The notes below the pieces were generated by a model. It did not search any database, was not told the origin of the DNA, and was given only the letters and a program-made list of their open reading frames with translations. This document shows positions 559 to 33,689 of a DNA stretch of 64,000 nucleotides, in pieces. Positions within the stretch are counted from its first letter, which is position 1. Every line of letters starts with the position of its first letter. The translations under genes were made by a program, and so were the position numbers. Source of the stretch: Bryum argenteum (taxonomy: Eukaryota > Streptophyta > Bryopsida > Bryales > Bryaceae); contig CM073328.1 of the NCBI GenBank assembly GCA_037043015.1, positions 16,341,495 to 16,405,494 on the forward strand, read 5' to 3'.

Positions 559-1493
559 TTATCCCTGGCCCGTGGATACCAGACTATGGTTGGATATTAT
601 CCACGCACCGGGTACAATAACGAACTCTACGTGTTAATGTAAATTATCTGTGACCCGGGGATAATGCTTTTTCTTGGGCCGATGCAAGGTTATCTCCGGC
701 CCGGGGATAACTGTGTAACCGCCCACAAAAAACAGTAATCCCCGGGCCGGGGATAACCTTGCATCGGCCCACAAATTATATTTTCCCCGGGTCGGTGATA
801 ACTGTTTTTGTGGGCGGATACATAGTTATCCCCGGGCCGGGGATAACCTTGCGTCCTCCCACAAAAAATATTATCTCCGGGCCGGGGATAATATTTTTTT
901 GGTGGTAACAAAGTTATCCCCAGACAGGGGGTAACCTTGCATCCTCCCAAAAAAATATTATCCCGGCCCGGGGATAATATTTTTGTGGGCGGATACATAG
1001 TTATTCTCGGGCCTGGGATAACCTCGCAACAACCCACCAAAAAAAATATCCCCGGCCCGGGGATAATATTTTTGGCGGTAACAAAGTTATCCCCGGACAG
1101 GGGATAACCTTGCATGTTACCGCCAAAAATATTATCCCTGGGCCGGGGATAATTTTTTTGGTGGATTGTTGCGAGGTTATCCCCGGCCCGGGGATAATGT
1201 TATTATCGTGGGCAGCAGAAATATTATCCCCGGGCCGGGGATAACTGTTTTTGTGGGCGGTTACATAGTTATCCCCGGCCCGGGGATAACCATGCAACTG
1301 CCCACCAAAAATATTATCCCGGCCCGGGATAATATTTCTCGCCGCCCAATAATAATAATATTATCCCCGGGCCGGGGATAATGGTTTTCTTGGGTTGATG
1401 CTAGGATATCCCCGGGGCGTGGATAACCATAATAGCATAGATTCCAGGAATAATCCCTACAGACAGTAGAAGTTATCCCCGGCCCGGGGATAA
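559..1493. repeat. Element B left palindrome array (about 21 copies)
   Basis: About 21 copies of a 21-bp palindrome: arm TTATCCCCGG, one free base (mostly G or C), then the arm's reverse complement. Starts by my reading: 559, 597, 644, 690, 736, 781, 826, 871, 914, 958, 1001, 1046, 1087, 1132, 1177, 1224, 1269, 1314, 1361, 1406, 1473. From 690 to 1406 the steps are 41-47 bp, mostly 45. Spacers of about 24 bp belong to one family (containing CTTGCAT, GCCCACAAAAA or TAACAAAG) and often appear in alternating orientation. The array sits in the inferred leader intron (about 463-1566) of the leftward gene. Confidence 0.95.
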
Positions 1494-1566
1494 CTTGCAT
1501 TCTATTAATAGTAAGTGCTGAACACTGTCATTCATGCCTTGAACTCAATTTGCGAACATCGCTCAC

Positions 1567-2070
1567 CTGCGAATTGCAGAATTCGAAAGGAAAAGAAGGG
1601 CTCGCAACTAAAAAAACCAAGCACAAAAATTAGTACCGAATATAGAAGTCGAGAAATACATGACGAGCAATAGTCTTAACTTGAATCATTATCAAACTAA
1701 TGCAACAATACTGAAACCTCTAAATGCGAAACTACATCAGACGCACTGAGCACCAACTGAAACTTCTTCGACACACACGCAACCTTGAACCTACACACCG
1801 GAACGCAATATGAAATGGAGCGCACCTTGAGAACAAGAACGAGGGAGAGAGGAAAATGAAAGGACACTTGAGAGACAGAGTATGCAACCCGAGCCCGACC
1901 TCAACGGTTACATCGTGAGAGTATCTTTACGCCCGAAATCGTGCAAAAAGCCGACAAATTTTGTCGCAATATGGATCTTGTCTTGATTAGGATTCTAAAA
2001 ACGATTCCATTTTTTAAAACAGAATTTTGAAAGTATTAGGCGGCAAAGGAATTTCGGCGGGAAACTGATT
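1567..2070 (-). promoter_or_regulatory. Leader exon and promoter region of element B leftward gene
   Basis: On the minus strand a good splice donor (GCAG|GTGAGC) sits at 1566, so DNA just above it is the likely 5' untranslated exon. Further upstream, 2056-2064 reads GGCGGGAAA, whose complement contains TTTCCCGC, a match to the E2F consensus TTTSSCGC. The region is more GC-rich than the AT-rich DNA that follows. No TATA box was placed with confidence. Transcription start is inferred, not seen. Confidence 0.4.
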
Positions 2071-2214
2071 TTGAAGGGAAACCCATTTCTAATTATCAAT
2101 ATTTATTTTTTACAAACAATATTGTCTTATATTTTTCTCTATAAAATTGAACAATCTTTACATAACTATGAGAATTGGAAAAAAAAATACAAATTTGTAT
2201 TAATGAATTCATCG

Positions 2215-3650
2215 AATAAACTATAATAACTACAAAATTAGAGTAACATATATTATATTTAGTATATTATATTATAATATAATATATTATAGTATAGTAT
2301 ATTATATTATATAATATTATATTATATTATATTATATTATATTATATTATACTATATTATATTATATTATATTATATTATATTATATTATATTATATTAT
2401 ATTATATTATATTATATTATATTATATTATATTATATTATATTATATTATATTATATTATATTATATTATATTATTTTATTTTATGTTATTTTATTTTAT
2501 GTTATATAATTTTACATTTTCAAAACAATATATATATGTTATTATCTTATAGTATATTTCTATATGATATTCTTTTATTATTCTATATTCTATTATATTG
2601 TACTATGTTTGATTATACTAGATTATACTACATTATAATATATTATAATATATTATAATATATCATACTAATTATTGGATAGAATATATTACTAGATAAT
2701 ACTATGTGATACTATATTAAACTATATTATTTTGTATACCATTGTGTTAAGTTATGTTATATTAGATTATATTGTACTATATGATTAAAATTTATGTGAA
2801 ATAAATATTTATTATTTTGTATTCTATTATACTATATTATACTATATTGTACTATGTTATATTATAAAATACGATCTTGTACTTTATTAAACTATATCAT
2901 ACTATTATTTACTATAATTTCCTATAATTTCCAATAATTCCTATATTATACTTTGTATTATATTGTACTATATTGTATTATAAAGTTTTTCTTATATTTT
3001 ATAAAATAATGAAATTATTACTTTATATTATATCATATTCTAGTTTGATATATTTTCCTATATGAAAATGAATTACATTATTATATGTTATGTTATATTA
3101 TATGATATATATTATTATGTTTTAGAACATATTTATATTATTGTTTTATATTCTATTATAATAAAATATACTATGTTCTACTATATTTTAGTACATTATA
3201 CTACGTTATACAATATTATGCAATATTAAATTGTATACCATTATGTTAAGGTATGGTATGTTAGATTATAATTATTACATTATATGTTTATAATTATTGT
3301 ACTATATGATTATAATTTGTCAATTCATATTGCACGATTTTTAAAGTTATTTCTTTTTTAATATGCAATCATTTCTAACTTGATAATTAGTGGGATCCCC
3401 TTTAACTCTGGAATATAAAAATAAGGAAGAAGTTTGTTATATTATAGTATATTATACTATAGTTTACTATCTTATATTAAAGGATATTAAGTAAGATTTA
3501 ATATATACTATTAAATTCTATTGTACTATATTGTATAATATTATACTCTATAGTATTATATCTTAATATGTTCATTTTTGTTATATTATATTATAATTCT
3601 TTATATGTACCTAAACTTTTTTTTCATAATAGCAATGACAACTAGCTTGA
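2215..3650. repeat. AT-rich stretch with ATTAT microsatellite
   Basis: Very AT-rich sequence built on TATTA/ATTAT-like pentamers; a nearly pure ATTAT run covers roughly 2295-2475, with looser versions to about 3600. No gene is visible. It lies in the central spacer side of element B or at its junction with other DNA. Confidence 0.9.
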
Positions 3651-3755
3651 GAGAATTAAAATTACACCTTTGAAGGCTTGGATTGAATGACTCACACATT
3701 AGAAATGCTATTTAGATTTAGTTCAAAAAAATCTTATTATGATATCAAAGAAGTA

Positions 3756-4105
3756 GAAAGGTCATGACGCTTCCAACGACTCCGACGGTGACGATTAGAA
3801 CAACTCGGACTATCGTGCGGGTTATCAGGCGGCGTGCGAGCTGGTCATGCAATATTCGCAGGCATCGCCCACTGCACCATCAACTGAGGCATCATCAGCA
3901 GCACCATCAGCGGAGGCAATGGAGACATCTCCTCCTAGTTTCACTTCAATGAGTGAGGAGCAGCACGCGCAAAGGCCTGATACTGAGACCCGAGGCCTAG
4001 ATAAACAACCTATGCTAGTGATCCCGTCGAGGTTCGTCACGACGATGATAGTGCCTGTTCAATCATTTGCGGGTGTGGTGGTCGTATCATCAGGCAACTA
4101 AAGCT
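3756..4105 (+). pseudogene. Fossil fragment of the element B coding tail
   Basis: This 350-bp stretch aligns along its whole length with 30262-30620 inside the element B tail: shared stretches include CCAACGACTCCGA, GCAATGGAGACATCTCCTC, GGCCTGATACTGAGACCC-like and GTGATCCCGTCGAGG. The copy is diverged, does not keep one open frame, and has no flanking palindromes. It is a decayed fragment of a B-type element embedded in AT-rich DNA. Confidence 0.8.
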
Positions 4106-5030
4106 CCATTGACTTATACATATATAACATATAATAGTTGAATACAAAAATAACCGTTAGTATAGAGTCCTTGAATAATGTAAGAGTACATTTTATGGTA
4201 CAGAAATAGTGTTATTTTATTTTTAATTTTATTAAGTACATGAACTCTATGGTTGTATTGCAGAAGAATATCAAACACAATAAATAAATGTTACTTTCCT
4301 TTCAAAGGTCTATGATACCTTCAAATTTATTTTAATACTTGGTGCCATCATCGTATTGTAAATCTTTGGGGAATTTTCTTATTTTTTGATTCCTTATGAT
4401 TTATACTCTACTAAAAGAGCAAATGGAGATTAGTAATAATGTGTATTTGTTATACATTAATTGGATGAAATATCAATTATTTGGTAATAAATTATTCCAT
4501 ACCTTATTTACAATATGTTTATTGCATCAATGTTTACCTACCATAGATCAAATAGACCAAAGTTTCAGTTACATAATTACATTGCAATAGTATAACATGT
4601 TCTAACTGTACATTCAACCTCGTATTCGTTATAATGGGAGAAGAACAATCTCCCAAATTAATACATGGAGTTCAATGGAGCTAAAATTCACTCAGTTATT
4701 CGCCACACCGTAAGCATATGTATTATGAAAATAAAATTTCCATTAAATTGGGAGGTCCACTTAGATCAAAACATTATGTAGAAAGCATGACATGAGATGA
4801 AGAAAATAAAACAGAGTGATTAAGACCCTTGTGTTAGCAATATGATAATCACTTGTCGTAGATTGGATCAACATTGTAATATGAAGAATTGGATTGCATC
4901 AACCCATAATTTGAATATATAATAGGAAATGAACAAAATACATTATAATATGTAATTCACTTACGACTACATATTAGAATACAAACTAAAGGGTCTAAGA
5001 GTCGGATATCGGATGCGTAGAGCATCATTG
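4106..5030. other. No gene recognised (AT-rich)
   Basis: Only short chance open frames. No palindromes of either type, no clear repeat. The left boundary of element A should lie near its right end, but I could not define a terminal inverted repeat or target duplication. Confidence 0.6.
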
Positions 5031-5038
5031 ATGGAATA

Positions 5039-7913
5039 CTACTCTTCTGAAGATGTGGCAAGTTCTCCCAAAGAGGCCTTTATGATATTGATTTGAATTT
5101 CAGGTATTGAAATAGTCATATCTTGCCCCATTCCGTCGTCCTCCCTAGGTTGCCTTGTTCTAGATTTCCATGCTGTGAAAATGGCATCCGTACTTTGAGA
5201 TGAAACGTCGACGCCTCTCTCCACCGTCCAACGTAGCTTTTTGTTTACATCCCAACCTGTATAATACTTTTGAACATCCCTATCCCGTGATATGGGACGA
5301 AAGAACTGGATTTCTACGGTATTAGGTAAGTCTGGGTTTGAATTTGGATCAGACATAGCACGCCCTATCCAAAATGGACGGCCATCTGTGCCACATGGAC
5401 GTAGTGCAACAAAATATCCCTTGTAAAGGTCTCGTCCAACTCGGAATGACGGAGCTGGTCGATTACGTCTTTGACCTACAAAGTGGTCGTCCTCGCCGTA
5501 CTCTTCACGAAGTGTCCCCTCCAATGTAAACTCATCTTCTACAGCATGCGCGAGACGAGTTGATGGCCAAAACCCATGTTCCAACTCCGGAGCTTCTTCA
5601 AGAGTTGACGGGATACCAGTCACGTGATATTAGTGTATCCATAGGTATACAAAGAGCATCCTTTACGTTGCTCAATAGTATGAGAGAGGCTCATACGATC
5701 GCCTTGATTCGATTGACTCACGTGATAATCGCTCCCAATGGTCAACAAATCCTCAAACTCCTTTCACAATCTCCGCAAATGACGATCCGCATTGGCCGCA
5801 CAAACTTGTGGTACCCCCTAGGCCATAGCGATCTACCCTCCGAATCCTCCTTCCATAACTTAATGCCCCCTCATCACCTCTAGGAAGCCATTCATCGTCA
5901 TGGCAAAAAAATTTTGTACTTCATAACCGGGCACCCACGTGCATCGAGGAAGAACTTGAACCGATGCGCTTTTGTATGTCCAACCAATGCTTCATCACCC
6001 TCCAAAGAACCACTCTTGAATGAAAGATTTGAAGTTAGGAACCTCTTGAACGAGGTGAGGAATGACGAGAAGTGACTCTAGCTTCATGAAAGATTTCATG
6101 AGAAGAGGGATAGTAGGATAATCCTCCTTATGCAAAGCCATGCTCCAACGACCAAATAATGCATCTATGTCATCATGAGTGTGACCAACTAGCATAAAAT
6201 TAACATATACTTCTCGAAATACCCGTTTGGCTACGAAAGGGACCGGAAGTCAAGACAAACCTATTTTTGTTGTCACTAACAAATTGTCCATTTGTACATT
6301 TAATATAGGGGGCAATGGCCTAGGTGGAACCAAAATGTCCGAATCGGGCCAAGTGGATCCAAACACATCTCTCGAACCATGAAGAAGAGTCTGCGTAAAG
6401 AGGATGCGAAGATGCCTCTCAAAAAGTTGTCTGGAGGAGGATTTCGGCGGAGCCTCCGGATCGCGTAGCGACCTTCGCAAATGACCCCACAAAGTAATTT
6501 GCATCATGTGAGAAAATATCTAATCCAAAATGCGCATAGCGCCGATCTACATGTCCATGAGCTAAAATGCCTGTTACCGCTATAGGCAATTTCATGAGAC
6601 CATCTAAGTTCTTCACCTTGTGGGATAAGGCAGGGGAGGCTGTCTTCGAGTGGTCCATCTTGTCATGCATAATAGTAAGAACCTCATGAGGCATTGTCTT
6701 CGACCTAAAACGATTGAGGTAATACAAATCCCTATGAGCAAACGCCGAGTCCAAGTGCGCACTTAGTTTCCTCGACCATAAAAGTGCAGATTGACTTCCT
6801 GGTAAGGTGAGCTTCATCAAGGAGTCAAATTCATCACACTTTGAGCACCGTGCGAAATTGTCTCCTGCCCTCTTCGCGTAGTACTCAGGATAGCTAAGTC
6901 GGCGGATTTTGCTAATGCTTGAAGCTGACACTGGTGGAAGCCCGCATTCAGCAAGATGTTCGCATATAGGCGGAATCTGATTTTTCCACTTAAAACTTGC
7001 AGGAAGTATCTTCGTTACAACCTTCTCCCCTGAGGAGAGGCTATGAGACTTGTGAGGCATGTGGTCAGCATGCCTAGCAAGTAATGCGCCCAAGACAATG
7101 AGGCTACAACATATGACCCCGGGCTTTCGTTTTCCAAAGATTCCCATGATGTTGGGCTTGAACCCAAAGAAATTGCGTTCAAAGCGTTGCGATAAAAGAC
7201 GCTAGAACTAACACCCATAATTTGCATCCACGCTAACGGACATACGTCTATGCCTTCAAGTATCACCACATTCCGCCCATTAGCATTGGTATGAAATTGT
7301 CGATGAACATCTAATTTGATGTGATTTCTGAACCGCACCGTTGTGTTTTCATACATGCGAGACCTAAGAACCTTTATCTTGTCTCTAGGGTAGTGTTGGA
7401 CACGATTTCGGCTACAACAATTATTCGATGCGACTTCGTTGATTGATTTCACCGAGTCAACAAGTTTTTGCTCTCTGCGAGTCTTTGAGTAGGAACATTC
7501 CTTTTGGAATTGTCATACGTACGAGTGTGTCTACCATTGACCCGACCCTGTTCTTTAACCCATCGGTTGTACACATCCCGCTGGGTATGGTGCAACAGAC
7601 TTACACCGTCCAAAAGAACTCGATCAATGGGCCACGACTTGAAGGAGTAAATCCAGTCGTCAGGATCGTCCACAGGCACAAACAAAGTTGAAATTTGCAC
7701 AACAATAACCGATTTACCGAGGGGTCCAGAAGTATCAGTAAGGGCACTGGATCGTAAATTCCGAGGTAAACCTTCAGCAATTTTGAGACCATCGCTGTCA
7801 AGTAACGCCACAGTTCTTCCCGACCAGAGCCGAGGTGGAACAACCTCAAACTCTGGAATATCCGGATTCACTGGTGGAACAACGGACTCCTCCTCAGCGG
7901 ATGAGGTGTCCAT
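5039..7913 (-). pseudogene. Transposase-like protein gene of element A (DUF7869-like), broken
   Basis: A leftward coding span of about 2.9 kb, start ATG at 7913-7911 (MDTSSAEEES) just after a CTGCAG splice acceptor. In order it shows: the N-terminal block shared with the gene at 1-461; a region with CCSRN and VCPLAW motifs near 7220-7430; an HKSHSLSSGEKVV segment near 7000-7050; a CSKC pair near 6840; the block MPHEVLTIMHDKMDHSKT near 6650; LPPILNVQMDN near 6280; VGHTHDDIDALFGRWS near 6150-6190; and a C-terminal domain (5039-5623) with YFVALRP, RPFWIGRA and YTGWD. The GHTHxDID and QxDN motifs are what I recall from DUF7869 proteins, which occur in repeated, transposon-like genes of plants and invertebrates. 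It is read in several overlapping frames, so it carries roughly half a dozen interruptions and is probably inactive. Family name recalled, not searched. Confidence 0.65.
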
Positions 7914-9907
7914 GCTGCAGATACACAAGAACATAGAAACAAGTTATAGGAAAGGCTATTGATCACAGCAAAGTCCCTGACAATATTGATATAACGACTC
8001 CTTCTATAGTATAGCTCCAGTTGATCTAACCAACGCCTTTTAGAAGGCGAGCACATGTAGTTTGAAACGGATTTAATGAAAATGAATGTTACAAATTGGA
8101 GTGTCACAAACTTAACGTCGATTTTTGAAGAAGTGTATGTCATCACATCCACCATAGTTAATAGAGTCCAAGGTCTTAGCTGAAGACGAGGTAAACCTTA
8201 GATATTGACATGTAATGCTAAATAGTTCCAATCGAGCTAAACGCCTCGAAGAATTGATTGATAAAAAGAATAGTTGGACTCCAAGTAAACATCCTTGCGA
8301 AAATGAGTTCGACAGTTCAGCTAGAATGGAGCAAACACTTTCAGTATCGATTATGCTGCAATTTAGCTCGAATCGAGCTAAACCGACGTAGTATCGGATG
8401 CCTTACACTTTACCTCGACTCGAGCTAAACTTATCAACTACAATATATCTTAGCTTTAGCTCGAGTCGAGTGGGCAAACCACCTTATATAAATCAAGTCC
8501 AAATTTAATTCTTGGAATAGATAATTTGGATTATTCACCTCGACTCGAGCTTAAGTGTTCGACTTTCAGAGGTCGTATACTTCAGCTCGAATCGAGCTAA
8601 ATTGCTCGAGTTTGCTAAGTCTCAGCTTTCAAGAGTCTGTAATGAAATCAGTCAGTTTAGCTCGAATCGAGCTAAACTTCAGAGTCTAAGGATTTCACTA
8701 ATTACATCAGTTCTCTTTTCTATATCGGTAAATTCTGACTTTCTTAGAGTCACAGTTTAGCTTGACTTAAGCAAAACTGAGTTACATACTGGGAGACATT
8801 GAATCTTTAGATTAGCTCGACTCGAGCTAAACTTACCAGATTTCAAAGGCTTGTAATGAAATCGTGAAGTTTAGCTCGAATCGAGCTAAACTTCGTACTT
8901 GGAGAACTAGAATATATACATCAACTCACTCTTCCTTTTTGTAAATTCAGACACACTTAGGGTCACAGTTTAGCTCGAATCGAGCTAAACTTAGTTACAT
9001 ATTGGGCGAGGTTGATACCTCAGTTTATCTCGACACGAGCTAAACTTACTAGATACCAAATGATTGTAATGAAACAGTTGAGTTTAGCTCGACTCGAGCT
9101 AAACTTTATAGTATGAGGATTAGAATGTTTTCATTAGCTCACTCTTCTATTTAGGTAAATTCAGACATACTTAGGGTCACAGTTTAGCTCGAGTCGAGCT
9201 AAACTGAGTTACATATTGGGCGAGTGGGGTGCCTTAGTTTAGCTCGACTCGAGCTAAACTGAATGGGCTTCAATTTTCTCAAAAGTAAACGTCTAATTGA
9301 CCTCGAGTCGAGCTAAACTGACGCACAGTTTGCGCCAGCTAGTATATGTAGTTTAGCTCGACTCGAGCTAAACTGGTTAGCTTTCAACAAACTCTATTGA
9401 ACTTGGAGTTTAGCTCGAATCGAGCTAAACTTTTATGTCTACAATTAGTCATAGCTTAGCTCGAGTCGAGCTAAATCTCTCAACTTTTCAAAGTCCTGAA
9501 GTTTAGCTCGAGTCGAGCTAAATTACTCGACTATACAAGCCCCGCAATTTAGCTCAATTCGAGCTAAACTGCGTCACTGTGGTACTCCTGGTATTTAGCT
9601 CGACTCTAGCTAAATGTCTGCACTCTTTCTCTCCCGATAATCACGGCGCATATTTCGGAGTACCGCTTCTCCTAATTCTCTGAAAGCAATAGGTTTGCAC
9701 TCGAGACGGATGCATTGAAAATGAAGGCTTGCCTGCACTTACATTGAAAACACACAATCTTAAGCATCACAGCAAAGGCGTCGACGACGCATGTGGAACG
9801 CTTCTCTGGGTTTAGGGTTTATGACGCCGAAGTTGAATTGTAAAATGCAAGAAGCACGTACGATACCAGAGACACAATTCAATAAACTGCCATATGCGTG
9901 GAGTCTT
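7914..9907 (-). other. Leader intron of element A leftward gene
   Basis: On the minus strand a donor CAAG|GTAAGA lies at about 9907 and an acceptor CTGCAG at about 7916-7921, one base before the start codon. The intron inferred between them holds the whole A left palindrome array. The same placement (array in the intron just before the first coding exon) is seen for the other three genes of the two elements. Intron use is inferred from splice-site sequence only. Confidence 0.45.
8231..9614. repeat. Element A left palindrome array (about 21 copies)
   Basis: About 21 copies of a 21-bp palindrome with arm TTTAGCTCGA, one free base, and the reverse-complement arm; often extended by GT/AC to 23-25 bp. 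Starts: 8362, 8409, 8455, 8535 (weak), 8581, 8656, 8756 (weak), 8811, 8870, 8969, 9024, 9083, 9183, 9238, 9297, 9352, 9409, 9455, 9502, 9548, 9594, plus a half site at 8232. All four bases occur at the centre. From 8656 to about 9300 the steps repeat as 100, 55, 59 bp, i.e. three copies of a 213-bp unit with three palindromes each. Confidence 0.95.
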
Positions 9908-11121: not shown

Positions 11122-11200
11122 ATAAACCCTAAACCCTAAACCCTAAACCCTGAATCCTAAACCCTAAACCCTAAACCCTAAACCCTAAAACCTAACCCCT
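11122..11200 (+). repeat. Interstitial telomere-like repeat (CCCTAAA)n
   Basis: About eight perfect or near-perfect copies of AAACCCT, the plant telomere repeat, decaying on the right into CCTAACCCC and ATCCTAAACTCC. It lies mid-way in the element A central spacer, not at a sequence end. Confidence 0.95.
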
Positions 11201-15200: not shown

Positions 15201-15201
15201 G

Positions 15202-23669: not shown

Positions 23670-23689
23670 GTAGTGATAGCTGAATTACT

Positions 23690-25200
23690 TTTGAATACAA
23701 TGAATAAACTATGTATTAATTACTCTTTGAGTAATTTATCATTTATAAAGTTCGGAGATTTCAATAATATTCTCAAACTCCCCTCTTATACTATGGCTTT
23801 TGTGTCGATTTGCACTTTCCAACAACACCTCGCATTCAATACATGTGCGAAACTCACGTTTATAGCATCTCCCTATCATATTTTGGTTATCAAGTCATTT
23901 AAATTGTACAATTTACGCGCCAATTGTACAGCTTTTAGGCCTCATAAATCCCTTTCAATCTCCCAAAATCCTGCATATTTCCCAATATAACGAATACGAG
24001 GTTATTCAATACTCACATAGCTAAGTAAGGTTTTTAAAATACACCTTAGATTTGAAATGAAATTAGATTAAGAAATTTCATTGACATAATTGTACATACT
24101 TATTTGACATCGATTTTGTTTCCTAACATGGAAATTTTACGTAATTCCTATCAAAAATTACACTCATATTAAAACTTAGAATGCTTCAGAAGCTTCTAAA
24201 CGTAGCATAAAATACATAGAATTCTAATCTACTTAATCATAGGATCATAATTGTCAATGAATCTATCTTCAATACATAGACTTTTTGAAATTTTATCTTC
24301 AACTTAATTAGGAATATATGTACAAACAGAAACGTATAAAATTTAATACTAAACCTTTGGAAAAATCATTTTGGAAAACAACAAAGAATTTGCAATTTGT
24401 ATACTAGCATATATTTATAAAACAAATGTCTTTCACATACTAAAGTTAGAAAACACTTTGTAGAACAGACCAAAAATAGTCTTCAATTCTGAACTTAACC
24501 CCTAAATTTCCTTGTTGCAAGACGGTCTAAGTCACAAAATTTCACTTTCCTTAAGATTAAGTTCAAAAAATCTCAATCTAACTATTATTTGAAAGATTCA
24601 ACCATAAGATCTCAAAGTTCACTTGACATTGTTCTCACAGATTAAATTTAAACAGTTCATTCTTCTCCATTTGGGAGATTATAATGGTCAAAGTAGGATG
24701 AGTTTCTCTCCTGCGGGAACCTCTAAAACCCGTTTCAGGTTTTAAGGAAAGTTTGGGGTTAAACATAAACTTCCAAGGGAATAAAAGTGCATGTGAATAG
24801 GAAACCAAGTCAAATTCTCAAAAAAAAAAAACAAAGAATAAGTACGCATTCTGAACTTGGATTAACCCTTAAAAGTCCCTTGGAATAGTATGTACGCTGT
24901 CGTATAATTAGGATTTGCTACCAACAAGAAACTCTAAATTGGAATCCTAATAGCTCACTAGAACCGCATTAATTCAAATGTCAACTTCTTCTTTGAACTC
25001 AAACCCATTAAAGGTGTGTATTCACTCCAAATACAACCAAAATACACCGTATTCTACCCGTGGCCACGGCACTCTCAGACCTTTAAGGGTTAAGAACAGT
25101 AAAATATTTCAAAATACTTTGCATTCCAAATTTATTCAAAAAAACTTTGTAATGAAGTAAAAAAAGTAAAAACAAAAAGTAAGCAATGATTTTTAAAATT
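23690..25200. other. No gene recognised (AT-rich, between elements A and B)
   Basis: No palindromes of either kind and no conserved coding. A piece around 24480-24680 carries phrases such as AACCCCTAAATTTCCTTG that recur near 56470, so it may hold a copy of the dispersed repeat described there. Confidence 0.5.
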
Positions 25201-25202
25201 TT

Positions 25203-25300
25203 TCATTTCATGGCCATGACTACCACACATGTACATGGTCATGTGCATGGTCATGCACATGCACATAGCCATGCGCATGACCATGCGCATGCGCAGCAAT
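25203..25300. promoter_or_regulatory. CATG-rich cluster with RY-like motifs
   Basis: About twelve CATG tetramers in 100 bp, many as CATGCAC, CATGCGCATG or CATGNTCATG. CATGCA is the RY motif bound by plant B3-domain factors. It lies just upstream of the element B rightward promoter. It could also be a simple-sequence repeat without function. Confidence 0.5.
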
Positions 25301-25309
25301 GATGGCGGG

Positions 25310-26335
25310 GTCATGATGACCCCTGCGCCGTCTTTCTCACATTCTCACAGACAGCTTCTCTACTTTCCTGCGCGCTCCTTCTCTCCGCCGTTTCCGCTCG
25401 TGTTATCTGCCGCGTCTCGCAGCTCCTTCTCGTTCCTTCTCGTTCGCGATTCCCTCTTCGCCGGCGCTTTTTCTGAGGCTCTCTTACGTGCGGTTCTGTC
25501 ACCTTTTTTGCCGCTTTCTGCCACCGTTTTTGCTGTAGGGTCCTTCGTTACCTGCGACGCCTCTCACTTTATCTTTTGCGCTCTGTACATTCGACGAGCT
25601 GATGCTTCTCAGCTTTTGGTTTATACCTTTTTGTTCGCAGTGTAGTTTCTGGAGTGTTTTGAGTGTGTTTCGAGTGAGATCCGAGTTCTGGTGATTTTTT
25701 TGGCTGCAGTTCAGCGCCCTCGAACTTGGAGCACGTTGAAGTTAGTTGTTTTTTCAGGTCGATTTGCTGGAAGTTGCAGAAGTGCGGACTGGAGTTTGCA
25801 TTTCAGTTATCACGTGTAAGTACCTACAGGTATGCAATTCATTTGGTTCGTTGTTGATTAGGTTTGAAGTTCCTCATATTGATGCTATGAGCAAGAGAAC
25901 TATGCTTAGTGTTCAGAATTTCAGACTTCAGTTTTAGGTTTTCAATACAAGCACTTTCGAGCTTCATTTTCATGCATCGATTTCAGTTCAGAACGGTTTG
26001 TAGCTGATGTTGCTTGAATTTCTTGTATCTTTTAGGTTTTTTTCTTCATTTCCTGCTGCTGGACCGTGAGGCTCCAACGATTGCTTCCAGTAATAGAGTT
26101 CATACCTTACAGTGCAATTTACATTGGTAAGCCTCAACTTTTAGGTTTTGATGATTGCTGTTGTGAATTGCGATTCAGCTATGATTCAGACTGTGCTATT
26201 TTTGGTGTTGGAAGTATGAGAAACGCTGGAGCTTATAATCACGGGTTGTTGCTAGATCTACACCTGTCATAGATTTTAGGTCTTTCAATATACTCGGCGA
26301 AATGATGTTGTGATTCCGTATTAATAGCGGAAGCA
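25310..26335 (+). promoter_or_regulatory. Promoter and leader exons of element B rightward unit
   Basis: Pyrimidine-rich GC-rich start resembling the element A leader at 13370. TTTGCCGC at 25507-25514 matches the E2F consensus TTTSSCGC. Several possible leader exons and introns follow (for example a GTAAGT donor at about 25817). No conserved protein is seen before 26824. Confidence 0.4.
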
Positions 26336-26339
26336 CAAT

Positions 26340-26766
26340 TTATCCCCGGGCCGGAGATAACTTGTGCATGCAGAGCAGCATTGTCACAACTTAATGCGGA
26401 AGTTATCCCCGGGCCGGGGATAATCTCTGCATTAAGGGCTGCATTTTGACCTCTGAATGCAGAAATTATCCCCGGGCCGGGAATAATTTTCTGCTCTGAG
26501 CACAGAATTATCCCCTGGCCGCGGATAATCTCTGCATTAAGCGCTGCATTGTGACCTCGTATGTGCGAAGTTATCCCGGCCCGGGAGAACTTCTGCGCCA
26601 GTCGACTTCTTGACCGCATCAAGTTATCCCGACCGGGGATAATTTCTGCACAGGTCGGCTACGTAACCTGTACATGCAGATGTTATCCCCGGCCCGGGGA
26701 TAATTCCTTAGCCTTACCGTTGAAATTAGGTAGACTAGACAGAAATTATCCCCGCGTCGGGGATAA
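26340..26766. repeat. Element B right palindrome array (8 copies)
   Basis: Copies start at 26340, 26403, 26466, 26508, 26571, 26624, 26683 and 26746, arm TTATCCCCGG with a few imperfect copies. Most steps are 63 bp (one is 42). Spacers are related to each other (CTCTGCATTAAG, GCTGCATT, TGACCTC) but differ from the left-array spacers. The array lies in the intron that ends at the TTGCAG acceptor (26815) before the first coding exon. Confidence 0.95.
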
Positions 26767-26823
26767 TTAATTTGTTAAGGCACCAGTATTAACGATTTGC
26801 CATTTACGATTGCAGACAAAACG

Positions 26824-27726
26824 ATGGCTCTCAGCGCAACAAATCCCCTCGACATGACCTTAGACAAGGTGGAGCACCCATTTGGGTTCAACCCGTTCCT
26901 CCGCGATAACGACGACGAAGGCCTTGACCTCTGGCTCTTCAAGGATGTGGTCGTCAGTTGGTCACTAAAGATCGTCAAGAACCATGTCCTCGTTATGACC
27001 AAGTTGGTCATGACGGACCCCTTTCTTCCCTTAGACCAGAATGTGAGGGTAATAGCATTCGAGGCACACCGGCAGATGTACATGATGCTCAGGTGTGTCC
27101 TTCAACAACAGGACGAGGGTAGGGATCCCTACCACTTTGGAATTGTGGTAGAGGTGGGTGAAAACTGCGAAGCGCAGTTCGACCCGCATGGCTTCCTTGC
27201 AGAGCTGCGCAAGACTCGGCATGGCTTTCTCAAGTTCTGGGAGGACAAAATCGACAGCTGGGAGAACATCAACCAAGAAGATACAGTTCGTAAACTTACG
27301 ACTATGCTGTCAAGGCTGTCACAGACGCATGAAGGGTCAAGCAGTAAAGCGGCTAAAAAGAAGAAGGCACTCGCCGCGTCTGCAATTGTCCTGCATACGG
27401 AAGCTTCAGCTCCGCAGTCTAGTGGTGCTCTACCGGCACCTCCGCGAGTGCCATCGAAGAGGCTGATGAATAATGCGATCGTTGCAGGCGGTGCCGCCCC
27501 CAAGAAGAAGAGACAGCGTACAGCTCCCCCTGCAACCGCAAGTCAAGGATCGGCCTTGACTTCTGTAGTCGCGGTGCCTGCCCGACAGAAGAAGGAATCA
27601 TCGAAACCTTCTGCTGAAGTGGCAGACTATGTGAGGTTTGCTTCGGCGGGCAGTCTTCAACCAAAGCTTCAAGGACTCTTTCTTGTTCAAGAAAGAACAG
27701 AAGCTGGTGCCCATTTCCCAGCTTGA
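26824..27726 (+). CDS. Element B long protein, N-terminal block
   Basis: Starts at an ATG (26824) eight bases after a splice acceptor, giving MALSATNPLDM. Homologous to 16866-17450 of A: acidic RDNDDEGLD, LWLFKD, WSLKIVKN, and a later LRKTRHGFLKFWEDKI. A second half is Ala/Ser/Pro/Lys-rich with two basic clusters (KAAKKKKA, PKKKRQR) that look like nuclear localisation signals. The domain is not recognised. The frame then shifts to that of the ParB-like block at about 27640-27726, so the gene is interrupted or has an unrecognised short intron here. Confidence 0.6.
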   Translation: MALSATNPLDMTLDKVEHPFGFNPFLRDNDDEGLDLWLFKDVVVSWSLKIVKNHVLVMTKLVMTDPFLPLDQNVRVIAFEAHRQMYMMLRCVLQQQDEGRDPYHFGIVVEVGENCEAQFDPHGFLAELRKTRHGFLKFWEDKIDSWENINQEDTVRKLTTMLSRLSQTHEGSSSKAAKKKKALAASAIVLHTEASAPQSSGALPAPPRVPSKRLMNNAIVAGGAAPKKKRQRTAPPATASQGSALTSVVAVPARQKKESSKPSAEVADYVRFASAGSLQPKLQGLFLVQERTEAGAHFPA

Positions 27727-28222
27727 GAGGGGAAAGGACGCATGGGTTGTGCGAAGTCTCGAAAGGGACATCGTTACGAACACCAAAGCATACCTCGCAA
27801 GGATGGGAGATGTTACCCGGAGGCAGACGATCATCATCACGCCTATTGACGCCAATGGAAACTTGCTCCCTAGGAGGCCGAGAACATGGGAGGAGATCAA
27901 AGATGGGAAATTTGCCATCATTGATGGCCAGCACTCCGTGGAAGCCTCGAGGGAGCTTCAAAACGAGCCCGTGACAGAGGACAGGAAGAAAGAGCTTCAA
28001 TCGTGGTATGCCTACATTCCTTACGAGACCGACCCAAAGCGCCTTACAGCGATTTCGGCATTCTACAACACCACGAAACCTCTGAAGCACGCCCAGCCGA
28101 CGTGGGGCAACCAAATAAAACCTGGAAGGTCTATTTGGATCGAGTGTGGGCGTCCATCCGCAAGCGTGAACGAGAACGCGACGCGGAATAACAACTCGGT
28201 CTACAATCCTACCAATTTTAAG
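27638..28222 (+). CDS. Element B long protein, ParB/DGQHR-like block
   Basis: Encodes FNQSFKDSFLF, then WVVRSLERDIV, an extended strand TIIITPIDANG and the signature FAIIDGQHSVEASREL (about 27908-27955), then WYAYIPYE, LTAISAFYN and PTWGNQIKPG. This is the pattern of a ParB-N / DGQHR (sulfiredoxin-fold) domain, with the usual arginine after the histidine replaced by serine. About 190 residues up to the donor AAG|GTAAGA at 28223. The clean intron that follows can be read through in frame, so the 132-bp intron is a multiple of three. Function inferred as DNA binding; the bacterial relatives bind palindromes or precede DNA methyltransferases. Confidence 0.65.
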
Positions 28223-28354
28223 GTAAGACAATACACTATTCCCAAAGATTATCCCCGCCCCGGGGATAATCCTCCTTCTGTTTCAGAGTTTGTTCCAGAC
28301 GTATTCATTGTTCCTTCACTCATCGCATCTAAACTTTTTTTCTTGTTTTCTCAG
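28223..28354 (+). other. Intron with one B palindrome
   Basis: 132 bp, GTAAGA...TTCTCAG. One B-type palindrome at 28249-28269 (arm TTATCCCCG-, centre region CCC). Same intron position as the A intron with seven A palindromes. Confidence 0.75.
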
Positions 28355-29707
28355 AAATTTACGGATCTTCTGTTGATCCGGTTTCGCAACATCGATCCCA
28401 GCAAGGTCGGGAAGTTGATTTTGACAACATCGGACCTCAAGCACGAGATCCAGATTATCACATTTCCAGACAGCATGTACGATAAGTTCGCAGAGTTCCT
28501 CGAACTTCATTCGCTTGGAAATCTGATCAACCCCGATACAGGCGCACCTTATCGAATGAACCCAACATACTTCACGCAAGACAAGCATCATGTGAGCAGG
28601 GAGCTCTTCAGGAAGTTTGGAAATCTTTCCGACGACGACATCGACAGGGTCATCACTTACCTTGTCCACGTCGAAACCGCCGAAGGTGCGCTGAAGTATC
28701 CAAGGTTGTCCTTCCACAAGACGAAGTACTTCCATCGCCTGAGCCACGCCTGTGGTGACTGGATTATTCGTCAGAAGTGCAAGGGTGTTGTGTACCAAGA
28801 GCTGAAGGCGATCAGGCCATCTCTTCCATTCTTCCTTCCCAACGACGGAGCAGTATGCCCTGAGAAATGGAAGGTATGGAAGTCGAGGAAGGGCTTCTCG
28901 ACGGCGTCGTGGAACATGCTGCTCAGCCACGTCGAGGCAAAATTTTACTCGACCAGACTGCAGAATCAGGGGAAGTTCAAAACGGCGGGGGAGTTGTAGT
29001 CCTTGTACCCCAACGTTGAGGACTTCTTCAAGGGCTTCTTGCGACAGAAGTCCAAGCATCGGGAGTCCACGAAGGCTTTCGATCTTCGGACCTTCAACTC
29101 GAAGGCCATGACCATTACTGGCCAATGGTCAACCCAGGCGCCTGAGGGAACAGTTTCGCTGGGGCTGTTTGACTTGCGTGACACAGCCTTCTCGCTTTGC
29201 AAGGACTCCAATGCTGCAAAAATGTTCTTCAAAGCATTGGTAGCAAAGTTCGCGGTTATATCAAGTCCAGCATACACCGACCCTACTGTATGGGTCTGGA
29301 TCGTGAACGGCGGTACTACGAAGAAGCTTGAGAAGCTGAAGGCGATGATTCAGCTCAGCCACTCCACCTACACAATGAGCACATCCAAGTACGTGGTGGC
29401 GAAAGCTGAGAGGATCTTCAACGCGCCCGACCATAGAGAGATCCATAACGACGCGTGTTCATTGTCTTCTTGTTCAAGAAGAAGACACCGAGAAGGGGAA
29501 GCCTTCATCGGCACAAACCCGGCGGAGTTCAAACCCGCCCATCTACCGTATTACATCGATAGTGGGCACTTCAACAAAGCCAAGTGGTGTGCTAAGTACT
29601 CCGAGCTGCGGATGGAGTTCTACATTGGACTCATCCGCCAGTATTGCAAGAAGGGTGACTCAACACTCGGGATCTTCTCCGGCTCCAAATTCATGGTCGC
29701 CTCCCTG
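28355..29707 (+). CDS. Element B long protein, methyltransferase-like block
   Basis: Continues after the intron with KFTDLLLIRFRNIDPSKVG; includes FRKFGNLSDDDIDRV, LKYPRLSFHKTKYFHRL and SFPFF-like segments to about 28999, then a second stretch with SLGLFDLRDTAF (place of motif IV, DPPY replaced by DLRD), VWVWIVNGG, and ELRMEFYIGLIRQYC, GIFSGSK, FMVASL (about 29605-29707). Order and spacing match beta-class N4/N6 DNA methyltransferases, in which the DPPY strand comes first and the F.GSG loop last. Key catalytic residues are absent, so a non-catalytic DNA or AdoMet reader is more likely. The block is broken at about one place near its middle. The exon ends at a GTAAGC donor; the next exon completes ILKHAFYGLID, like the 'R..iGiE' strand after motif I. 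Confidence 0.5.
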
Positions 29708-29942
29708 GTAAGCTCGACACCCAGTATCCTCATTTGGCTTGAAATAGACCCATTATCCCCGCCCCCGGGATAAATAGCTCCTCTTCTTTTATAACTTTCA
29801 GTGTATACCAGTGTATTCCTGTGTTGTTGGTAATCCTGCAAATTTTCAGTTTCGCGTTCTGTTCTATCAGTTATCCCCGGGCCGGGGATAACTTTTCCCT
29901 TGTGCATCACCGTAATTGATCGCTTCTTTTCTTCCCATGCAG
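29708..29942 (+). other. Intron with two B palindromes
   Basis: 235 bp, GTAAGC...CATGCAG. B palindromes at 29753-29773 (one mismatch region) and 29871-29891 (perfect). Homologous in position to the A intron 19989-20396. Confidence 0.8.
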
Positions 29943-32078
29943 ATCCTGAAACATGCCTTTTATGGCCTGATTGACAATCACTACTACGGGGGATACTTAC
30001 TCTCTACGGGTAAAAGGACCAGGGATGACTATAGGGACTTCATCCACGATGACTGTCCCTACGTCCCCAAGAAGAGCTCTTCGTCTGACGAAATGCAAGA
30101 CCTCAGCCTCGTAACGAGGGCTTCATTCGAAGGGAGCCAACCTTCATCTTCTGCAGCAGAGCCGGTGTCCGACATGGGAGCTGAGAGCACGCGGTCCCCT
30201 CAAGCTCAAGCTCCAGATACGTCTGCAGACTCCTCGGAGAAAAGGAACAGCGATGCCACATCCAACGACTCCGATGGTGACGATTCTGACGACTCGGACT
30301 ATCGATCGGGACGTCAGGCGACTCGGCATTCCCCGGTCAGGTCATCCCCGCATGCATCGCCAACAGCTCAATCAGAGCCGGCATCGCCCATAGTACCATC
30401 TGCGCAAGCTTCGCCAACCGCACCATCACCGGAAGCAATGGAGACATCTCCTCGTATCTCCACTCCGATGGGTGATGATCACCAGGCGTAGGGGCCTGAT
30501 ACCGAGACCCAACGCCCTGGGAAGGAGCCCACGCCAGTGATCCCGTCGAGGCTCGTTACGTCGTCAACCATGCCTGTTCAATCATCTGCGGATGTTGTCG
30601 TCGGATCATCGGGCAACCCCGACTCGCGAAGGCCATTGAAACGCCGGCTCGATCTCGCAGCTGAGACCGTGGCTCCGAGTCAACCATTGGATGGGGCGTC
30701 TTGCGCCATGCCCTCTTCTACTGTGGCGCCTGCGGTGGACACAACCCCTCAGAGTAAAGTTCCTAACAGACGGGGGAGGCCACTCTATGCACTCGTGGCG
30801 CCCACCCACGTATTCATAGATCTCAGTGACGAGTAAGGCACTGATCCGGCGGATGAATTCTATGTCGTCGATGTCGCAGCTCCTGAACGCGAAGCCATCG
30901 AGCTCCCGACATCGTCACCTTCGAGCTCCCGTCGGCGTAACCGGCCCCTTGATGATTCAGACCAGGCATCTCTGGATGAAGGTACGCCTATGAAGAAGGA
31001 GAAACCTGTCGTGGTGTGCAACCCCTCTACTGACCCAATGGCAAATGCAGCAGGAGTTGCGCCTCCTCCAGGTGCTCCGGGTGTGAAGGTTGAGGAACAC
31101 TTCCTGGCTAACAACAGAAGGCTAGCCGAAGAGGGGAGGCTAAAAAAAAGAGAAGGCCCAGAAGGAAGCAGAGGACGCAAGGAAGATCGCGGAGGCTAAC
31201 ATAGTCTTCGAATGGCTGCGAACTGGCACGCCGATGCCACCCCACGTTGCTGAGATAATCGCACGCCAGAATTCGGATAATTCTTCCACCTCGGGCACCC
31301 CGAGTTCGAACTGCTGCAGTTATCCCGGGCCGGGATATCTTTCGCCACAACCACCGCGTCTCTGCCCGGCGAGTGGAGCCCTTGCCAGCCGCCGTTTGTC
31401 CGCAAGGCACGGCCACACAGTTATCCCGGGCCGGGGATAATCTTCTTCTTGACGACTAGCTCCGACCCTTGCGCGCGCGGCCATTTCAGCGAGAGGGAAC
31501 CCGAGCGGACGTGTCTGGTCATTCTTCGTTTCCGATCAGCCCGATGCCGTTGCTGAATCTCAGGCTGCTGCCGATCGCCTTCCTCGATCTGAGATTATCC
31601 CGGCCCGGGATAATGCGACTCTTCTCGTTGAGTGTCCCCTCCCGCCGACGATCCTGCCTTGGGTCCTGATTCATCGAGTCTGGCACCCGCTGCTCCAGTG
31701 GTTGAGTCTGCTCAACCACCCGATTCTGGTCTAGAACTATCTCAGTATGACCAGCTGGTAAGTTATCCCCTGGCCGGGGATAATGCGGAGCCAAGAGTCG
31801 AAGTGGAGGAGACCAATCCTGAGCCCGTCGCGGCGCCGGAGTCCGAAGATTAGCAGTTGGTGGACTATTCGTCTAGCCCGACCAACGCGATTCAACCGCA
31901 AGAGCCACATGAAGATGTAAGTACTTTCACCCTCCTCCGCATGTCTGCAATAACTCGTCGTCGTCACAACCGTCATGATTTTGTCGCTTGGCCTTAACCT
32001 AAACCGATTCGCTTGCCTGAACTTCGCTTATTCGTCTATTTTCTCCTGCAGGAGATCGACGACCCTTATTCGTTATGA
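29943..32078 (+). CDS. Element B long protein, disordered tail
   Basis: Starts ILKHAFYGLIDNHYYGG and TRDDYRDFIHDD, then becomes Ser/Pro/Asp-rich (SSADSSEKRNSDATSNDSDGDDSDDSD, shortened here to its pattern of S, D and N). Later pieces carry RPLYALVAPTHVFIDLSDE (to 30836), a Lys/Arg-rich stretch (31100-31200) and QPQEPHED (to 31916), a GTAAGT-CTGCAG intron, and a last short exon ending EIDDPYSL at 32078. An AATAAA follows at about 32204. The tail is not in one frame throughout; four B palindromes (31320-31783) lie within it. A diverged fossil of part of this tail is at 3756-4105. Confidence 0.5.
31320..31783 (+). repeat. Four B palindromes in the coding tail
   Basis: 31320-31340 (imperfect), 31421-31440, 31595-31613 and 31763-31783; arms one to two bases shorter than in the arrays in three of them. 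If translated they read as YPGPGY or IPGRG-like peptides. They may lie in unrecognised introns. Confidence 0.8.
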
Positions 32079-32452
32079 TTTTTCTGGAGTTGTCAACGTT
32101 TGCTGTGGCGCGTCATGTATTTTAGATTTTCGGTAGTATTAGTACCCAGCGTAGTGTTTCGGTCAAAGTTGACAAACACATCCCTTGTACATGATTGATG
32201 TAAATAAACTTATTTTTGATACCAATGTTTTTGCCTTCAAAGTGGAGTGTGATTTGATTTTCCTCAATGTCTTTCTCAGTTCACCTCTGTAGGATTCATT
32301 CTGCGCCCACGGGCGTGAGATTGCATCGAATCCGATCGATCCGCCCCCAATGCCACGGATGCAATGCATGCCGTCATTGTGGATTTGCTCGGATCGCGGT
32401 GTCTCTCGCTTTCAATCGTATCCTCAACATTATCGTTTCCTTTGATGCCAGG

Positions 32453-33274
32453 TAGAATTGATTTTCCAATTTGAGTGTGTCCCGCGGCCGGTGCGCTCGG
32501 GCGGACACGCGCCGCCTCGATGGTTGAATGTCGTCCTCGACATCAACGGGATACTTTGTCGGTGTGTGCATCTGCCATCGCGCCGGGAGGAATTCTCCCA
32601 TGTGCTCTCACGGGGACCGGCTCTACGTGCGGGACATCCCGGCGAAGGTGCCTCAAAGGCGGTCTTCGCCGCCCGGGAGTGAGAAATTTCTTGGAGACCA
32701 TGTCCGCCCATGTTGCGAGGGTTGTGATATGGAGTTCGATGAAGAAGTCCATTGTTAAAGCGATCATCGACTACCTCTTGATGGACTTCCTAAGCCTTTT
32801 GAGATCCTCGGACAAGAGTCTTGTGGATTGGTTGAGGTTAGCGGAGGTGTCTATTTGTCGTACCCGACCAATGCTCAAAAGAGGATATTTTTGAAAACAT
32901 TGTCCTCTCTGCAGTGTTCCCGCTTAGTAACGGTCTTTGTTGTGTTTGGGTTGGATAACACTCTCCTCATTGACGACAGATCTGAGAAGAGTATTTGCAA
33001 CCACATCAACGCCATTTTCCTCCGACCTTGGACAAAATCTAGCCGGGAGGACAATACTCTGTCCGCCGTGCTTACTCCATGGCTACTCGCTCTTCTCGCC
33101 AATTGCAGGCCTGGGAATCTTTGGTCCTATGTAGACAATCATAGGATTGGTATTCCGCCTATCAATAAGTATAGCAATTTAGGTCGGTTTATTTTAGATG
33201 GTATGGCGCAGTCGCATAGGAACTTAGGGCGTACTTACGAAACTCCTTCATTTCCTGAGTCATTGTCCAGATGA
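32453..33274 (+). pseudogene. FCP1-like HAD protein of element B, decayed
   Basis: Follows an acceptor (GATGCCAG). Recognisable in pieces: NVVLDINGILCRC (motif I, with DIN for DLD), VVIWSSMKKSIVKAIIDYLL (motif II), QKRIFLKTLSS, LLIDDRSEK (motif IV, DDRS for DDSP), LRPWTKSSREDNTL, then a C-terminal part to the stop at 33272-33274. The order equals the element A HAD protein at 21859-22635, but the frame changes several times and motif IV has drifted, so it is likely non-functional. It supports B being older or more decayed than A in this gene. Confidence 0.65.
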
Positions 33275-33513
33275 CGGTTAGGGCGCTCTTTATTCCTTTT
33301 TGAGGACACAGTAGATAATTATGTAAATGAGTTGCTATTGTATGAATATCATGGTTTAAATAAAAAAGCCGATTATTTTATCATCCTTTATGTACCACAT
33401 CGCAATGTGATCAATTTCTATTACGTCATTTGTGGATGCTTGTTCACTTAGTATTGATGTTGATTATTGTTTCTGTTTTATGACTCTTTCTTTGTTGTCA
33501 GTTAGGACGTCAT

Positions 33514-33689
33514 TTGTGCCCGGCCCGGGGATAATCTCTGGAGGTATCAGCTTGTATGCGTTGAGTCATATGTTCTCTTTATGTCGAGTTTGATTTCACT
33601 GGTTGTTTGCTTTATGTTCTTGTATGCTTTTTGGTTGTGAACAGGACGTTAATTCTCCCCGGCTAGAGTTATCCCCGCTTCGTGGATAA
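33514..33689 (+). repeat. Two B palindromes in an intron
   Basis: 33514-33534 (left arm degraded, right arm CCGGGGATAA perfect) and 33669-33689 (arm TTATCCCCG, right GTGGATAA). They precede the acceptor TCTACAG at 33755. Confidence 0.75.

Follow-up and report, generated by a model that had tools for sequence, protein, structure and literature searches.

Private repeated motifs have been described in two transposon systems, VANDAL/VANC and CACTA/TNPA. In VANDAL elements, according to the accounts in PMC5735166 and PMC10398659, short motifs are gathered in the non-coding parts of the element, partly through tandem repeats, and differ between related families, and it has been proposed that the motif and an element protein change together. 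For the CACTA group (Spm/En, Tam1, Tgm), the text of PMC2613891 describes private repeated motifs that differ by subfamily within one genome, subterminal repeats with a TNPA-like protein of the element itself as their presumed reader, and elements that can reach 17-20 kb; in its soybean example, Tgmt, no motif is farther than 159 and 732 bp from the ends, the terminal inverted repeat (TIR) starts with CACTA and the target-site duplication is 3 bp.

The locus analysed here resembles both systems. Like the VANDAL elements of the published accounts, it has clustered, non-coding motifs that differ between families; the motif is a 21-bp palindrome, however, where 9-bp or 8-bp motifs are given for VANDAL, and it exists in four related arm versions that can be compared on a tree. 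No MULE transposase, VANC, DUF1985 or DUF287 was found in the coding-strand frames scanned of the two elements, A and B. VANDAL/MULE insertions have long target-site duplications of about 9 bp, whereas the duplication here is 4 bp in all three insertions read. The element-private repeated motifs, their subfamily specificity within one genome and the similar element size recall CACTA as it is described, but the TIRs begin AACCTCG.../AAGGGGA..., the duplications are 4 bp long, most sites are internal rather than subterminal (one A site is found 0.7 kb inside the right end), and a tnp2-type transposase domain was not found in the frames scanned. By analogy, the element would work like VANDAL/VANC or CACTA/TNPA while being a member of neither. 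The first-pass annotation had judged the pattern not to be a known transposon hallmark, which is partly right, although private repeated motifs as such are shared with these two systems; we found no description of the transposon family or of the palindrome pattern in the open-licence literature, which is weak evidence of novelty.

Two nested elements and their genes

The window, that is, the whole 64-kb stretch of DNA that was analysed, holds two complete, related DNA transposons, with A sitting inside B. Element A occupies 4616..24003 (19,388 bp); the alignment of a copy on C10 ends at both of these boundaries and that of a second copy at the right boundary only. Its TIR is AACCTCGTATTCGTTATAWTGGGA, the first 18 bases of which recur without mismatch 34 times in forward and 31 times in reverse orientation across the genome, with many pairs 18.9-20.4 kb apart. 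A is flanked by the 4-bp target-site duplication ATTC (4612..4615 and 24004..24007), in place of which the C10 copy has ACAA on either side. Element B, interrupted by A, covers 1..35332 of the window; a left end within the window was considered and rejected, the end having been found 2.9 kb beyond it (L045:7084). Both ends of B were read (TIR AAGGGGATATTCGTTATTTTGAGA, target-site duplication TTGT), and on the right 35 of 41 other genomic matches stop at query positions 2128-2143, window position 35332 being query position 2133. A 4-bp duplication accompanies each of the three insertions for which both ends were read (ATTC, ACAA, TTGT). The TIRs of A and B are similar, yet differ between the two, and three proteins are common to both elements: DUF7869, the "DGQH" protein and a NIF-domain protein. 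A and B belong to one family of DNA transposons of ~19-20 kb with a 4-bp duplication, and their shared proteins and similar TIRs bear out the relatedness that had been noted at first sight. Plant-type TAAACCC repeats were also recorded in a repeat scan.

On the minus strand of A, the leftward DUF7869 gene (5039..7512) is broken into several frames and resembles the Pfam DUF7869 proteins (PF25273, E 5.5e-18); elsewhere in the genome the frames are longer, open up to 1036 aa, and relatives match DUF7869 to E 7.3e-45. The protein, which lies inside a unit with TIRs, is probably a transposase, an assignment that we take from its place and its copy number; Pfam gives no function for DUF7869, and a full-text literature search on the name found no paper. 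An N-terminal ORF on the same strand, left of the A array (7449..7943), is homologous to a B ORF at 2-583 (33% over 145 aa). The DGQH gene of A (16866..20009, plus strand), probably multi-exon, consists of an N domain, an INGQHN motif, a middle part and a C domain, and has homology to B and to P0074-P0083; its counterpart in B (26797..29773, plus strand) is interrupted by a single in-frame stop (28997-28999). The DGQH protein matched neither a solved structure nor any Pfam family above cut-off. A ParB/methylase identity, a lead suggested by its motifs, was dropped: it found no firm backing in profile or sequence searches, and the likeness to ParB comes down to one weak match (E 0.048).

Further along the plus strand, A carries an acidic low-complexity ORF without a Pfam match (20397..20915) and an open frame for a NIF-domain (FCP1/HAD-like) protein (21826..22635; PF03031, E 3e-12) that has relatives across the genome. 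The NIF-domain ORFs of B (32475..33274, plus strand) are 36% identical to the A protein over 131 aa and match a fragment of PF03031 at E 0.0048, under the family cut-off. In the coding-strand frames of A and B, the Pfam matches were NIF, DUF7869 and one sub-threshold zinc finger only, in DNA scans that covered 16.5-24.5 and 25-34.9 kb of the plus strand and 1-600, 4.5-8.3 and 10-15.2 kb of the minus strand. A viral origin was also considered and set aside, on weak evidence of absence: searches of IMG/VR viral contigs with the NIF, DGQH and DUF7869 proteins brought up no relative, and a scan of viral contigs with the palindrome of a further arm type (D, below) gave no match.

Form, placement and conservation of the palindromes

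Both palindromes have the geometry first ascribed to them, 10-bp arms about a single centre base (10-N-10, 21 bp): TTTAGCTCGA-N-TCGAGCTAAA in A and TTATCCCCGG-N-CCGGGGATAA in B. At ≤3 mismatches the window contains 55 A sites, against 0.01 expected (40 of them exact), and 29 B sites, against 0.00 expected (9 of them exact), and the earlier counts of about 60 and about 38 were slightly and clearly too high, respectively; at ≤4 mismatches, with each site assigned to its best motif, there are 57 A and 33 B sites. The territories are separate, as had been claimed, with 55/55 A sites and 0/29 B sites inside 4616-24003. The near-constancy of the arms and the freedom of the centre base, claimed for both elements, hold for A, where there are 19 arm changes over 55 sites and the centre reads A18 C15 G14 T8, but less well for B, whose arms are less constant (36 changes over 29 sites) and whose centre is C or G in 26 of 29 sites.

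None of the 55 A sites overlaps our exon set, which covers 31% of A, in an analysis that omitted nine loci overlapping other loci. Two main arrays hold 41 of the 55 sites and flank a 5.6-kb core in mid-element. The left one (19 sites, 8362..9614), upstream of the leftward transposase genes, is an inverted relative of the right one (22 sites, 15202..16798), which lies upstream of the rightward gene set. A cluster of seven sites (18313..18578) has an exon-like ORF of the DGQH gene on either side and lies in a probable intron, and one of five (20005..20362) lies immediately 5' of the acidic-protein ORF (20397); lone palindromes stand upstream (21380..21400) and downstream (23301..23321) of the NIF ORF, the latter being the near-terminal site mentioned above. 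B has an array of 17 sites with a period of ~45 bp (559..1493) and one of six upstream of its rightward genes (26340..26766). A further B palindrome (28249..28269) probably falls within an intron of the B DGQH gene, and some DGQH homologues from other sources run into a similar palindrome at the same place. Two more sites (29753..29891) are found where this gene ends, ahead of the next ORF (29916), with one upstream (31763..31783) and two downstream (33514..33689) of the NIF ORFs.

This layout bears on whether the palindromes serve the transposition machinery, through a TNPA-like accessory protein that joins the element ends, rather than gene regulation. In CACTA elements, as PMC2613891 describes them, private, repeated and partly palindromic motifs are bound by an element protein and required for excision; moreover, the A arrays are arranged as two blocks in inverted orientation, the TIRs, too, differ between A and B, and one A site does lie close to an end. 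The majority of the sites, however, lie away from the subterminal regions: on the left, 3.7 kb of A precede the first site, the two main arrays surround the central core, and other clusters are intergenic or fall in probable introns. Because of where the sites are, a main role as terminal or subterminal transposase sites is disfavoured, and we regard a function in transposition as rather unlikely.

Comparison between copies shows that the A arms are conserved. At the three non-array A sites, for which 28 of 29 A copies covered at least one site, the arms are identical to the window at 1318/1329 positions (99.2%) and the 20-bp flanks at 2308/2484 (92.9%), while the NIF ORF of the same copies is identical at 22915/23439; the centre base of these sites is invariant (66/66). 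For the A arrays compared with copy c1 (47 of 55 sites aligned), the corresponding values are 908/924 for the arms, 954/1064 for the 12-bp flanks and 36/47 for the centre. In B, compared with one copy, the arms (183/193) are little better kept than the rest of the element (5668/6138).

These values, together with the make-up of the arrays, weigh on the idea that the sites are DNA or RNA hairpins, or functionless repeats that were passively amplified. Parts of the arrays are indeed tandem repeats with units of 38-213 bp, so array copies have multiplied by duplication, and the sites of one locus (L001) have partly self-complementary flanks. Yet none of the 19 arm changes in A or the 36 in B is compensated, which indicates that the sequence is kept and not the pairing, the arms of the three isolated A sites outconserve both their flanks and the NIF ORF, and the centre base varies in the arrays; we consider hairpins or passive repeats very improbable.

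We think it probable, instead, that the palindromes are lineage-private operators that are bound symmetrically by an element-encoded protein and control the element's own genes or their silencing. Each palindrome would be the private operator of one transposon lineage, occupied by a symmetric (dimeric) element protein. From sequence, the favoured and most likely candidate for this palindrome-binding protein is the product of the DGQH gene, which adjoins the main array. The sites stand before, between and probably in introns of the element's own genes, and the bound protein may switch these genes on or lift silencing, acting on its own copies only, as VANC does for VANDAL. Where the protein of a lineage shifts in specificity, its half-sites would be expected to shift too.

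Arm types and element phylogeny

A third clade in the genome, C, uses the arm TTATCGTCGA. Of its 25 sites, only 20% have a complementary innermost pair and 36% a complementary outermost pair; since both pairs are mostly non-complementary, the geometry is nearer 8-3-8 or 9-3-9, and the 10-N-10 form is valid for A, B and D. An element piece from another source has arm D, TTATCCTCGA, which at every position carries the majority base of arms A, B and C. Those three differ from one another at 3-5 of their 10 positions, C, D and B are one to three bases apart, and all four arms have CpG at positions 8-9.

Arm type tracks element phylogeny. In a NIF tree that took in 10 of the 30 A loci, each of the arms A, B and C corresponds to one clade (A 100/100; B and C 100/99), and arm type changes twice, the minimum, with 0 of 200 shuffles as low. 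The tree of the C half of DGQH gives the same grouping, A with A3 (99/97), C (100/99) and B (99/98), and places D next to B (87/89, not starred). A second DGQH tree, in which 13 of 23 rows were kept after those with <90 filled columns were dropped, has the A3 row as a long, unplaced branch. The suggestion that the site changes as a set with its element thus agrees with two genes; the 30 A loci, being close copies, count as about one lineage. Across the 51 loci scored there is no arm mixing, and only the window has two types, in two elements. Nor were palindromes scattered without the genes in the part of the genome checked, where 9 of 10 A-site clusters (among the first 100 listed of 5878 sites) have element genes nearby. 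In the 2.5 kb read at locus L065, no gene accompanies the A array, the C-clade locus L055 is without any site, and at C5:12.12 Mb, which has two exact D sites, no D-type gene is among the 94 matches listed (90 of 1020 candidates scored).

The same pattern bears on a reading in which the elements exploit a dimeric host factor that recognises the sites, such as a transcription factor, an insulator or a silencing protein. Symmetry, strong conservation and non-coding position would all suit such a factor, but a single host has three arm types, 3-5 of 10 positions apart per arm and sorted by element clade, which would require a separate host factor for each clade; we hold this to be improbable.

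Under the operator reading, it is quite possible, although we propose it tentatively, that a lineage of giant DNA transposons of which we found no description has independently evolved self-addressed control, in which a symmetric DGQH-motif protein reads a CpG-bearing 21-bp operator. The arms would then form an orderable series of specificity switches, with TTATCCTCGA the probable ancestor and TTATCGTCGA, TTATCCCCGG and TTTAGCTCGA derived, and dozens of half-sites per element would have changed with the protein. If true, this would be a VANC-type strategy in an unrelated transposon with a different transposase, possibly in another plant lineage, and would allow a direct test of how a DNA-binding protein and dozens of sites switch specificity jointly, for which the family is suited because arms C, D and B are so close and sort on the protein tree. 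A change of arm is not seen in every lineage. At locus L002, which has the A arm, part of the transposase shares 56% identity with B, 52% with A2 and 41% with A, so that its transposase gene is not clearly on the A side. The A arm is also found at loci with proteins just 22-44% identical to those of A, which indicates that divergence of the proteins is not enough by itself to alter the arm.

Palindromes and element genes

The 21-bp palindromes of the two nested DNA transposons A and B, each formed by two 10-bp arms around a centre base, are numerous in the window, with 55 A sites and 29 B sites at up to 3 mismatches, as against 0.01 and 0.00 in shuffled sequence. Across the assembly searched (258.8 Mb, 25 contigs), in which the window spans G000:C8:16341495-16405494, exact sites numbered 5878 for A, 693 for B and 324 for a third type, C (core TATCGTCGNNNCGACGATA); the same three patterns read backwards gave no match genome-wide. 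As the first-pass annotation had proposed, the A and B palindromes keep to separate territories, since all 55 A sites lie within A and none of the 29 B sites does. The shared geometry that it also described, two arms around a single N, is seen in A and B and also in a fourth type, D, while C has a centre of three bases.

By position, 19 A sites lie ahead of the leftward genes and 22 ahead of the rightward set; a further 7 fall within a probable intron, 5 precede an acidic ORF, and one each lies upstream and downstream of the ORF for the NIF protein (PF03031); B sites in the comparable places number 17, 6, 1, 2, 1 and 2. The exon set that we used takes in 31% of A and includes no part of any of the 55 A sites. 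We checked by hand the C1 contig listings for 100 of the 5878 A, 50 of the 693 B and 50 of the 324 C sites, with clusters divided at gaps above 15 kb. For A, the palindromes in these listings were not scattered without genes: an element gene lay within ~10 kb of 9 of 10 clusters (NIF in four, the transposase or another element gene in the others). For B and C, a gene was matched at 5 of 7 and 8 of 12 clusters, respectively, and none among the best candidates listed for the other 2 and 4; those four C clusters consist of one or two sites each. At 1.12 Mb on C1, an A array of nine sites (L065, G000:C1:1119000-1121500) had no element gene within the 2.5 kb read, and is possibly a gene-less derivative.

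Conservation of the arms

For three A sites lying outside the arrays, the window was compared with 29 further A-type loci, at least one of the three being covered in 28. Identity to the window was 1318/1329 in the arms and 2308/2484 in the 20-bp flanks (p ~1e-21, the true value being weaker because the bases share ancestry), with 58877/62114 in other DNA and 22915/23439 in the NIF ORF; the centre base was unchanged in 66/66. In the arrays, where flanks may be misaligned between repeats, A copy c1 (47 of 55 sites aligned) gave 908/924 for the arms, 954/1064 for 12-bp flanks and 36/47 for the centre, and A copy c2 (14 sites) gave 280/280, 258/296 and 11/14. The arms of B are noisier, and the signal of constraint there is weak, because in comparison with one copy (9 of 10 sites) the arms matched at 183/193 and the rest at 5668/6138 (flanks 195/230, centre 6/9). 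No arm change was compensated on the opposite arm, in A (0/19) or in B (0/36), which argues that sequence is kept rather than a hairpin. At decayed A sites, 38/908 CpG positions had changed (by C>T or G>A in 29 cases) as against 12/908 other G/C positions, as would be expected if A sites were methylated at times. The outer flanks of several A-arm sites in L001 (1326-1868) are in part self-complementary (CCA...TGG and further out) and vary between sites, so that the palindromes there extend past the 21-bp core.

Arm types, element lineages and a putative binding protein

When the window and 51 retrieved loci (L009-L059) were scored at up to 4 mismatches, A sites occurred alone in 30 A-type NIF loci and six stretches of contig C10, B sites alone in L046-L050 (NIF 52-64% identical to B) and C sites alone in L051-L054 and L056-L059; L045 and L055 had no A, B or C site at this threshold. 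None of the 51 loci was mixed, and the window alone held two types, in two separate elements. The suggestion that each element clade has a private arm agrees with the NIF tree (27 rows, including 10 of the 30 A loci), where A, B and C form one clade each, requiring 2 changes, a number as low as which was reached in 0 of 200 shuffles. The arm nevertheless does not change with every lineage, because the A arm is retained in L001, L062-L064 and L066, whose proteins are 22-44% identical to A over matched pieces. L064 (A3), the only one of these placed in a tree, groups with A (99/97) on the C-terminal half of DGQH, the element protein with a conserved DGQH/NGQH motif (19 rows), where C lies apart and D groups with B (87/89, not starred); a shorter tree, built from the N-terminal part, leaves A3 unplaced. 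A transposase piece of L002, a locus that overlaps L001, shows identities of 56% with B (over 100 aa), 52% with A2, a relative of A (over 107 aa), and 41% with A itself (over 107 aa), so that, judged from this piece, the locus is not clearly on A's side.

The D arm comes from L060, a 4.2-kb contig filed under uncultured cyanobacterium, in our view a eukaryotic contaminant, which encodes a DGQH protein and has five sites of the form TTATCCTCGA-N-TCGAGGATAA. Taking the majority base of A, B and C at each position gives exactly TTATCCTCGA, and the arm distances (A-D 3, B-D 2, C-D 1, A-B 5, A-C 4, B-C 3) are additive through D, so that D appears to be the ancestral arm; all four arms agree at positions 1, 2, 8 and 9 (TT and CG). 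The host has two exact D sites, 60 bp apart (G000:C5:12121442-12121522), with no D-type gene nearby among the best candidates listed. The intron palindrome of the DGQH gene recurs in other homologues: in a scan of 182 homologous proteins, three (P0079, P0081 and P0082) read beyond the exon into peptides encodable by a B- or D-type palindrome (0 in reversed proteins), although P0081 is the L060 protein and so does not count separately from arm D. A looser pattern is matched by P0076, the reversed-protein control covering the strict pattern only.

Since the sites are long and symmetric, with both arms conserved in sequence and the middle mostly free, and since they lie ahead of genes and in probable introns and differ as a set by lineage, they are best explained as sites of a putative symmetric, element-encoded protein acting on the element's own genes, which would activate them, de-silence them or aid transposition. 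The nearest working parallel is VANDAL/VANC. VANC binds motifs in non-coding, tandemly repeated VANDAL regions and removes silencing, with related VANCs recognising different motifs (PMC5735166, PMC10398659). CACTA elements similarly carry motifs of their own that TNPA-like proteins read, but these sit near the element ends (PMC2613891). The A/B family falls outside both groups, from which it is set apart by its end repeats, the length of its target duplication and the protein domains identified.

Structure and gene content of A and B

Element A is delimited by one C10 copy, whose alignment with the window runs from 4616 to ~24003, and by a second copy that ends at the same right boundary. At its ends A has inverted repeats of 24 bp (AACCTCGTATTCGTTATAWTGGGA), flanked by a 4-bp target duplication (ATTC in the window versus ACAA in the C10 copy), and its first 18 bases occur genome-wide 34 times forward and 31 times in reverse, many pairs being spaced 18.9-20.4 kb apart. 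On the right, B ends at 35332, and 35 of the 41 other genome matches terminate there (query position 2128-2143). On the left it reaches into the adjoining DNA (L045:7084); the end repeat of B (AAGGGGATATTCGTTATTTTGAGA) is related to that of A, and its duplication is TTGT. From these ends and duplications, A and B are both complete transposons and A is inserted into B, hence the B sites on both sides of A territory. A 241-bp repeat (3858-4098 and 30377-30617, 76% identical) places a segment resembling part of B's right side immediately to the left of A.

Proteins common to A and B are 26-43% identical over matched pieces, and some frames are broken in both window copies. The DUF7869 gene (E 5.5e-18), taken as the transposase, is situated to the left of the arrays; it is divided among several frames in the window, but in other copies its frames stay open for as much as 1036 aa. 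The rightward set comprises a probable multi-exon DGQH gene (relatives P0074-P0083), the acidic ORF and the NIF-domain protein, encoded at 21826-22635. The DGQH protein matched no Pfam family above cut-off, and no recognised DNA-binding domain was found in it. The NIF catalytic motif reads DLNG, the second Asp being Asn, in all 43 homologues that match the pattern (73 examined; pattern not found in 30), so the protein may be other than an ordinary phosphatase. By hand count, 112 of 146 genome-wide NIF matches to element A fall on C1 (44 Mb), which may be a sex chromosome, or another that does not recombine, on which these elements accumulate.

An ORF at 61912-62496, 38% identical to the 5042-5629 region of A (DUF7869 gene), is perhaps a fragment of a third element. 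The 5.6-kb core of A between its arrays (9616-15201), in which no Pfam family was found on the minus strand, contains telomere-like TAAACCC repeats at 11123-11237, as well as 93-bp tandem repeats, of which a C10 copy has an expanded set.
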